Shown: positions 1-9,872 of the stretch, piece by piece | Numbering within the stretch: the first letter of the stretch is position 1 | How the letters are laid out: each line of letters opens with the position of its first letter | From: an uncultured Piscirickettsiaceae bacterium | GTDB taxonomy: Bacteria > Pseudomonadota > Gammaproteobacteria > Methylococcales > Cycloclasticaceae | NCBI GenBank assembly: GCA_913061075.1 | Contig: CAJXSK010000004.1 | Coordinates: 1-64,000 of the forward strand | Length of the DNA: 64,000 bases | Direction: 5' to 3' | Position numbers and translations under genes: made by a program | Notes under the pieces: generated by a model | Seen by the model: the letters and a program-made list of their open reading frames with translations, nothing else | The model's database searches: none | Told to the model about the DNA's origin: nothing

Positions 1-50
1 GATCTACACTATCCTCTTCGTCGGCAGCGTCAGATGTGTATAAGAGACAG
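1..50 (+). other. Illumina Nextera i5 adapter (sequencing artefact)
   Basis: Bases 1-9 are the end of the P5 flow-cell sequence (GATCTACAC). Bases 10-17 (TATCCTCT) match Nextera i5 index S503. Bases 18-50 are the Nextera read 1 transposase adapter, ending in the mosaic-end AGATGTGTATAAGAGACAG. The order and lengths (9+8+33) match the library adapter with no gap, so this is untrimmed adapter and not genome. Genomic sequence starts at base 51. Confidence 0.98.
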
Positions 51-509
51 TTCTTCAGCTGTTAGGTCTGGGAAAGTAGCTTTAGCGCGAGGCACTTCAG
101 TTAAATGGTAGTGCCAGTATTTTTTTTCTTCTTCAGGCAATTTTTCATACATCGCTGTAGGGATGATGTATTCAAAACCCATTGGCTTGTCTTGATCTTT
201 CATGCCCGTGTGGAACATAAGGCAAATCAATGTGCTGTCTTCATAGGCTTTACAGTGGTGGTGAACAATCACTTGTAATAACGGGTCATCATTAGAATGA
301 GTATCTGGCATCATATGGCGTATAGCCTGAATATGTAGATCGTTGAAGCCTAAATGGTTTGGGTATTCATTTTGACGAGGGTTCATTGTTTCGTTATAAA
401 GCTTTGTAACAGCAGCGCCTTCATGATTGTGTGAATGTACTTCAGCGTTGGCTACAAAGGATGCGCTTATTAGGCCTATGAGTATCAGGCCGGTGCTTAA
501 TAATTTCAA
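51..509 (-). CDS. DUF1264 (OBAP-like) exported protein, 3' truncated at contig end
   Basis: A signal peptide (about residues 1-22, ending VANA) is followed by a His-rich DUF1264 domain, the family of plant oil-body-associated proteins. Its hallmarks are visible: a His cluster (VIVHHHC), GFEYIIP and LPEEEKKYWHYH. The bacterial function is unknown to me. The start is TTG at 509, supported by AGGAA six bases upstream and the absence of a nearby ATG. The native reading frame runs only to base 51. Translation beyond it enters the adapter and yields the artefactual tail LSLIHI before a stop at base 30, so the real C-terminus is missing. The gene is isolated from the next one by a 195-base gap. Confidence 0.75.
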
Positions 510-4381: not shown

Positions 4382-5202
4382 TACCGTTCACGAAAATGCA
4401 TGGTCTAGGAAATGACTTTGTCGTAATAGATGCCATTACGCAGACTGTGCAATTAACTCAGGAACAAATAAGAAACATGGCTGACCGGCATCACGGTGTG
4501 GGCTTTGATCAGATGCTATTAGTAGAACCTGCTCAAGGCGGTGCGGATTTTCGATATGTGATCTATAACGCAGATGGCAGCGAGGTATCGCAGTGTGGCA
4601 ATGGTGCGCGTTGTTTTGCATTGTTTGTACAGCGCCAAGGTTTAACAGACAAAAAATCAATACGCGTTGAAACGGGTGCGGGTGAGATTGTTTTAAACAT
4701 AGTGTCGTCTAACGAAGTTGAAGTTAATATGGGCGTGCCAACGTTTGTGCCCTCGGACATTCCGCTATTAGCGGATGAGGAACTGGCAGAATATGAGGTT
4801 GAATTATCTCAACAAGTCGTTTCTTTTTCAGCTTTGTCCATTGGTAATCCACACGCTGTTATTAATGTGAACGACATTGCCAGTGCGCCGCTTGAAACAG
4901 TGGGCAAAAGGTTAGAAAGTCATACGGTATTTCCTGAGCGCGCTAATATTGGTTTTTCGCAAATAATTAATAGATCTGAATTAGCCTTGCGTGTGTATGA
5001 GCGAGGCGCTGGTGAAACGTTGGCATGTGGTAGCGGTGCGTGTGCAGCAGCTATTGCTGCAATAAAATTGGACAAGGTTGATTCACCAGTTAAGGTGACA
5101 TTGCCTGGTGGTTCTTTGAATATATCATGGGCTGGATTGGGGATGCCGGTGATAATGACAGGCCCAGCAACATTTGTTTTTGATGGTACTATTACAATAT
5201 GA
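4375..5202 (+). CDS. dapF: Diaminopimelate epimerase
   Basis: Cofactor-independent epimerase converting LL- to meso-diaminopimelate for peptidoglycan and lysine. The two catalytic Cys are Cys74 (QCGNGARC) and Cys218 (ETLACGSGAC). The GTG start at 4375 overlaps lysA, has GAGG seven bases upstream, and gives the family N-terminus with FTKMHGLGNDF. The internal ATG at 4396 would remove residues conserved in the family. Length (275) is normal. It overlaps the DUF484 gene by 4 bases. Confidence 0.97.
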   Translation: MLIPFTKMHGLGNDFVVIDAITQTVQLTQEQIRNMADRHHGVGFDQMLLVEPAQGGADFRYVIYNADGSEVSQCGNGARCFALFVQRQGLTDKKSIRVETGAGEIVLNIVSSNEVEVNMGVPTFVPSDIPLLADEELAEYEVELSQQVVSFSALSIGNPHAVINVNDIASAPLETVGKRLESHTVFPERANIGFSQIINRSELALRVYERGAGETLACGSGACAAAIAAIKLDKVDSPVKVTLPGGSLNISWAGLGMPVIMTGPATFVFDGTITI

Positions 5203-9518: not shown

Positions 9519-9872
9519 ATGACCACAATTACAGATATAGCGCTCGATCAAAAGAGCAGAATGTTGTCCCTTAGTTTTGATGACGGACGGACGACAGACT
9601 TAAGTTGTGAGTACTTGCGCGTGCACTCGCCTTCGGCTGAAGTTCGTGGCCATGGGCCGGGGCAAGAAGTACTTCAAACGGGTAAAGAAAATGTCAACAT
9701 AGTAGCCATTGAACCGGTAGGCAATTATGCAGTTAGATTGGTGTTTAGTGATGAACATGACACAGGGCTATACGCATGGAATTTTTTAATTGAACTCGCT
9801 GAAAATAAAGAAGCCTATTGGCAAGCATATTTAGAAAAGCTGGATGAAGCTGGTTATCAACGTAACGTATAA
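9519..9872 (+). CDS. DUF971 (GBBH-like N-terminal domain) protein
   Basis: A 117-residue protein matching the DUF971 family, which resembles the N-terminal metal-binding domain of gamma-butyrobetaine hydroxylase. Visible family segments are LSFDDG, LSCEYLRVHSPSAEVRGHG and YAWNFLIEL. In other bacteria it follows hslVU and precedes ubiE, as here. The function is unproven. It lies 7 bases after hslU and 13 bases before ubiE, so it is probably cotranscribed with both. Confidence 0.9.
   Translation: MTTITDIALDQKSRMLSLSFDDGRTTDLSCEYLRVHSPSAEVRGHGPGQEVLQTGKENVNIVAIEPVGNYAVRLVFSDEHDTGLYAWNFLIELAENKEAYWQAYLEKLDEAGYQRNV

Follow-up and report, generated by a model that had tools for sequence, protein, structure and literature searches.

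An untrimmed Nextera adapter at a contig end and the false C-terminus it gives to a DUF1264 gene

The beginning of contig CAJXSK010000004.1 (C4), from an uncultured Piscirickettsiaceae bacterium, raises a simple question: does the gene that runs into the contig end really stop there, or are its last codons something that the organism never encoded? The window, i.e. the whole stretch of 64,000 nucleotides analysed here, is the start of C4, one of the 20 contigs (2.26 Mb) that make up the genome. We are as good as certain that what stands at its edge is an untrimmed Nextera (Tn5 tagmentation) adapter, an ordinary sequencing artefact with nothing biologically new about it. The gene is split by this artefact, and its missing part can be recovered from the same assembly.

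The adapter and the open frame that enters it

The first 50 bases of the window read, in order, gatctacac, tatcctct, tcgtcggcagcgtc and agatgtgtataagagacag, and are confirmed as coming from the Nextera i5 adapter (Table 1). In order, its parts are P5, i5 index, Read 1 site and mosaic end; the full i5 oligonucleotide is 70 bases long, and the 50 at its 3' end are the ones present here. The 19-base mosaic end has a single exact copy in the window, directly abutting the insert, and was matched in none of 100 shuffled sequences, even with three mismatches allowed; the 14-base Read 1 site, at two mismatches, was matched in 20 of 100 shuffles and is not significant by itself. The index is supported independently by public contigs: of the 126 matches to this adapter listed in at least 120 public stretches, 19 have the index in front of them, and no other 8-mer is commoner there. 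These results agree with a first-pass annotation of the sequence that had placed an untrimmed i5 adapter and its index at bases 1–50; the one small correction to its extent of 1–53 is that genomic sequence begins at base 51.

On the minus strand, an open reading frame of 159 residues (30–509) ends in ...TAEELSLIHI, and its translation bears out the further statement of that annotation that the gene enters the adapter and acquires LSLIHI before a stop at base 30. Against Pfam, the protein scores as DUF1264 (PF06884) with an E value of 7e-15 and 55.5 bits, the gathering cut-off being 25, residues 71–145 aligning to positions 16–89 of the 171-position profile. Compared with other DUF1264 proteins, the copy in the window breaks off after residue 153 of 195 and is otherwise an ordinary member; just as ordinary are its neighbours on the same strand, a redoxin-family protein (705–1232) and a LysR-type regulator (1340–2215). 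The artefact thus drops 42 genuine residues (154–195) and adds six.

Table 1. Adapter and gene features at the start of the window, and adapter-derived residues in inspected phage records
Feature	Position	Strand	Remark
P5 part of Nextera i5 adapter, 3' end, 9 bases	1–9	+	GATCTACAC
i5 index	10–17	+	TATCCTCT; carried by each of the 5 i5-tailed ends in the assembly
Read 1 primer site	18–31	+	TCGTCGGCAGCGTC
Tn5 mosaic end, 19 bp	32–50	+	AGATGTGTATAAGAGACAG
False stop codon TGA within adapter	30–32	-	
False C-terminal tail, adapter-encoded	33–50	-	LSLIHI
Genuine gene part	51–509	-	residues 1–153 of 195-residue DUF1264 (PF06884) protein; TTG start
Exact 53-base overlap with adapter-trimmed C5 end	51–103		inside gene
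Phage CDS, LR597636.1			adapter-derived tail VSYTHLTLPTICSV
Phage terminase, LR595870.1			CLLYTSDAADD near end
Phage CDS, LR597653.1 (L312)			N-terminal ...QMCIRDS
Phage CDS, LR597643.1 (L315)			begins exactly at adapter ATG, MCIRDT

The remainder of the gene on a second contig and in relatives

Where, then, is the rest of the gene? A second match to the window protein in the same genome sits where contig C5 ends, immediately next to an i7 tail; it is the remaining 3' portion of the gene, complete with a real stop (L053, C5:214891–215890). Because this part of the gene and its stop stand at the C5 end, C4 and C5 are genomic neighbours. When all pairs of the 40 contig ends were compared after tail trimming for exact overlaps of at least 12 bases, the two ends were found to overlap within the gene (Table 1), and the gene joined across this overlap encodes 195 residues ending in EGAKLLPVVNETYGKVIYFKKPHDELPLGEPYVLIVQDMPEQD. 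Six other exact end overlaps were found, each exactly 55 bases long, a regularity that would fit de Bruijn assembly at k = 55. The start of C17 and the end of C19 share a 55-base overlap that lies in a hexanucleotide repeat, (AACCAG)n, and this break is for that reason attributed to the repeat and not to an adapter.

Matches to the protein at E ≤ 0.001 were obtained in 19 of the 61 genomes searched, its own genome counted, and the closest whole homologues are those of two genomes of the same genus, G012 (85% identity) and G010 (83%). The joined C-terminus aligns to both without gaps, and all end in the identical PLGEPYVLIVQDMPEQD; the alignment covers these two loci (L010 and L011) of nine given, the other seven being left out. 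Past the junction, C5 and the two relatives continue with AAKILP[VI]VNETYG.../GAKLLPVVNETYG..., residues different from LSLIHI, which is accordingly false, as had been claimed. Additionally, the sequences of C4 and C5 map side by side in both relatives with the identical 53-base overlap (9623–9675 of the G012 stretch and 4513–4565 of the G010 contig). The first-pass annotation had proposed looking for the same gene in a related genome, and in both genomes it is uninterrupted across the junction; this contiguity is an independent check, which shows that C4 and C5 adjoin and that no adapter belongs between them.

Tails across the assembly and the origin of the break

The window is not the only place in the assembly where an adapter is found. 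Eleven exact matches to the mosaic end were obtained among the 20 contigs, none of them lying more than 60 bases from the nearest end, and a reversed mosaic-end control pattern gave no match in the same contigs. Eleven of the 40 contig ends are tailed, five with i5 and six with i7 sequence. The i5 tails share their index, and the i7 index AGGAGTCC stands in five of the six i7 tails, the sixth (C19) being cut before the index; a single index pair throughout is as expected from a single library. Part order, sequence, position and the single index pair are all the same as in Illumina Nextera/Tn5 i5 contamination of contig ends; what is less usual is that the rest of the cut gene could be located elsewhere in the assembly, on a contig that bears the opposite adapter. 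At five of the 11 tailed ends, open frames of at least 60 codons, which are candidate genes, enter the adapter, three of them ending in LSLIHI and two in VSYTHLRAHETDSY; at C16, C18 and C19 the scan covered 400 bases. The tails are 41–50 bases long in 10 of the 11 cases and 33 bases in one (C19). The idea that the assembler's k sets tail length by chance k-mer sharing was dropped as a misfit to the 33-base tail of C19, and it is also disfavoured by public stretches that come from several assemblers.

Some contig ends carry repeated sequence of another kind. One common sequence forms the start of C3 and the ends of C9 and C17, and another forms the starts of C9 and C14; both run into GGGGGGATTACA and then into different flanks, a pattern that a multi-copy mobile element would leave at its two ends if its copies had been collapsed in assembly. 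The end of C11 resembles the closing part of a gene for an IS3-type transposase.

How might the break between C4 and C5 have come about? Fragments shorter than the read length would be read through into the adapter, and with trimming incomplete and coverage running out, contigs would retain the adapter tail of the last read. Window base 51 marks one Tn5 cut site, and a second lies at the C5 end once its tail is removed; 53 bases of the gene are enclosed between them. An overlap of 53 bases would fall short of the apparent k of 55, so that C4 and C5 would never have been joined; the gene stands divided, with a falsely complete 5' part in the window and a 3' part on C5. This account of an overlap shorter than k applies to one junction, the C4 start and C5 end being the two of the 11 tailed ends that are paired by exact overlap.

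A variant of this account, which we consider possible and somewhat unlikely, concerns a detail of the break and not the artefact itself: a single 53-base fragment with i7 and i5 sides, read through from both ends, may have marked the break in place of two separate fragments whose ends enclose those bases. The shared 53 bases do have a tail pointing away from them on either side, i5 on C4 and i7 on C5, hence of opposite type, and totals of 53 + 50 and 53 + 49 bases would each suit a read length of about 100. However, such a fragment alone would provide no link to the flanks at k = 55 and would need other reads or smaller k steps.

Might base 50 instead be the end of a genuine Tn5-like insertion? 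In favour of this idea, transposases recognise the mosaic end, but outward of the 19-mer come the Read 1 site, then the 8-base index and then P5 sequence. Moreover, tails of both the i5 and the i7 kind are present, the 19-mer is confined to contig ends, and the gene is uninterrupted on C5 and in both relatives. We have rejected a real transposon end here as extremely improbable. Least credible of all, and likewise rejected, is that a shortened DUF1264 variant natively ends in LSLIHI: the open reading frame is formally complete, with a stop, but the tail is wholly adapter-encoded, the rest of the gene is on C5, the long form is present in both of the related genomes aligned, and the same peptide terminates open reading frames at the ends of C3 and C16.

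Adapter tails in public records

An untrimmed adapter at a contig end is by no means peculiar to this genome. Of 369 genomes of the class that were searched, 11 contain the mosaic end, this genome counted, and scans of genome_contigs and viral_contigs for a 33-base stretch of the adapter each gave at least 120 stretches that contain it. Matches lie no more than 120 bases from an end of the stretch in 121 of the 126 listed for genome stretches and in 119 of the 120 listed for viral ones; among the matches listed, 67 of the 121 end tails of public genome stretches are 46–50 bases long. The same 33 bases occur in 26 of 50,697 phage records and eight of 72,556 plasmid records, and are absent from all 20,395 records for complete E. 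coli genomes. One draft genome of 3.1 Mb (G414) holds 463 copies of the mosaic end (231 forward, 232 reverse), far above the others of the 369 searched. Exact copies of the 33 bases also lie deep inside long records, among them the phages MK373775.1, MK170160.1 and MZ092003.1 and several Klebsiella plasmids, which suggests misjoins through the adapter and not end tails.

Have such residues been deposited as protein? In nine of the 26 phage records the match falls under a listed feature, in 13 it falls under none, and the last four are without annotation; in all four of the nine that were inspected, picked because a feature was listed, the deposited CDS contains adapter-derived residues (Table 1). 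An ATG on the forward strand of the mosaic end yields false N-termini beginning MCIRD.... The first-pass annotation had held that anyone annotating this contig automatically would deposit an artefactual C-terminus; the phage entries lend this warning substance, but in its general form it is too strong, as screening at submission would catch such cases. We found nothing in the literature on Nextera adapter contamination at contig ends of assemblies. Any of the tail peptides occurs in three papers, one of which prints, for tagged CLN3 clones, a transposon-derived peptide that starts with LSLIHI and ends with DVYKRQ (PMC4106830).

For the DUF1264 gene, the consequence is that the false stop lends a truncated gene the look of a complete one, a minor matter of data hygiene. 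More broadly, we give even chances to the proposition that adapter tails in public drafts hide short overlaps, that some split genes could be rejoined from a bacterial assembly alone by trimming and end matching, and that LSLIHI, VSYTHL..., CLLYTS... and an N-terminal MCIRD flag chimeric proteins. Such false endings do occur in other public assemblies, and their fixed peptide tails would let such entries be found.
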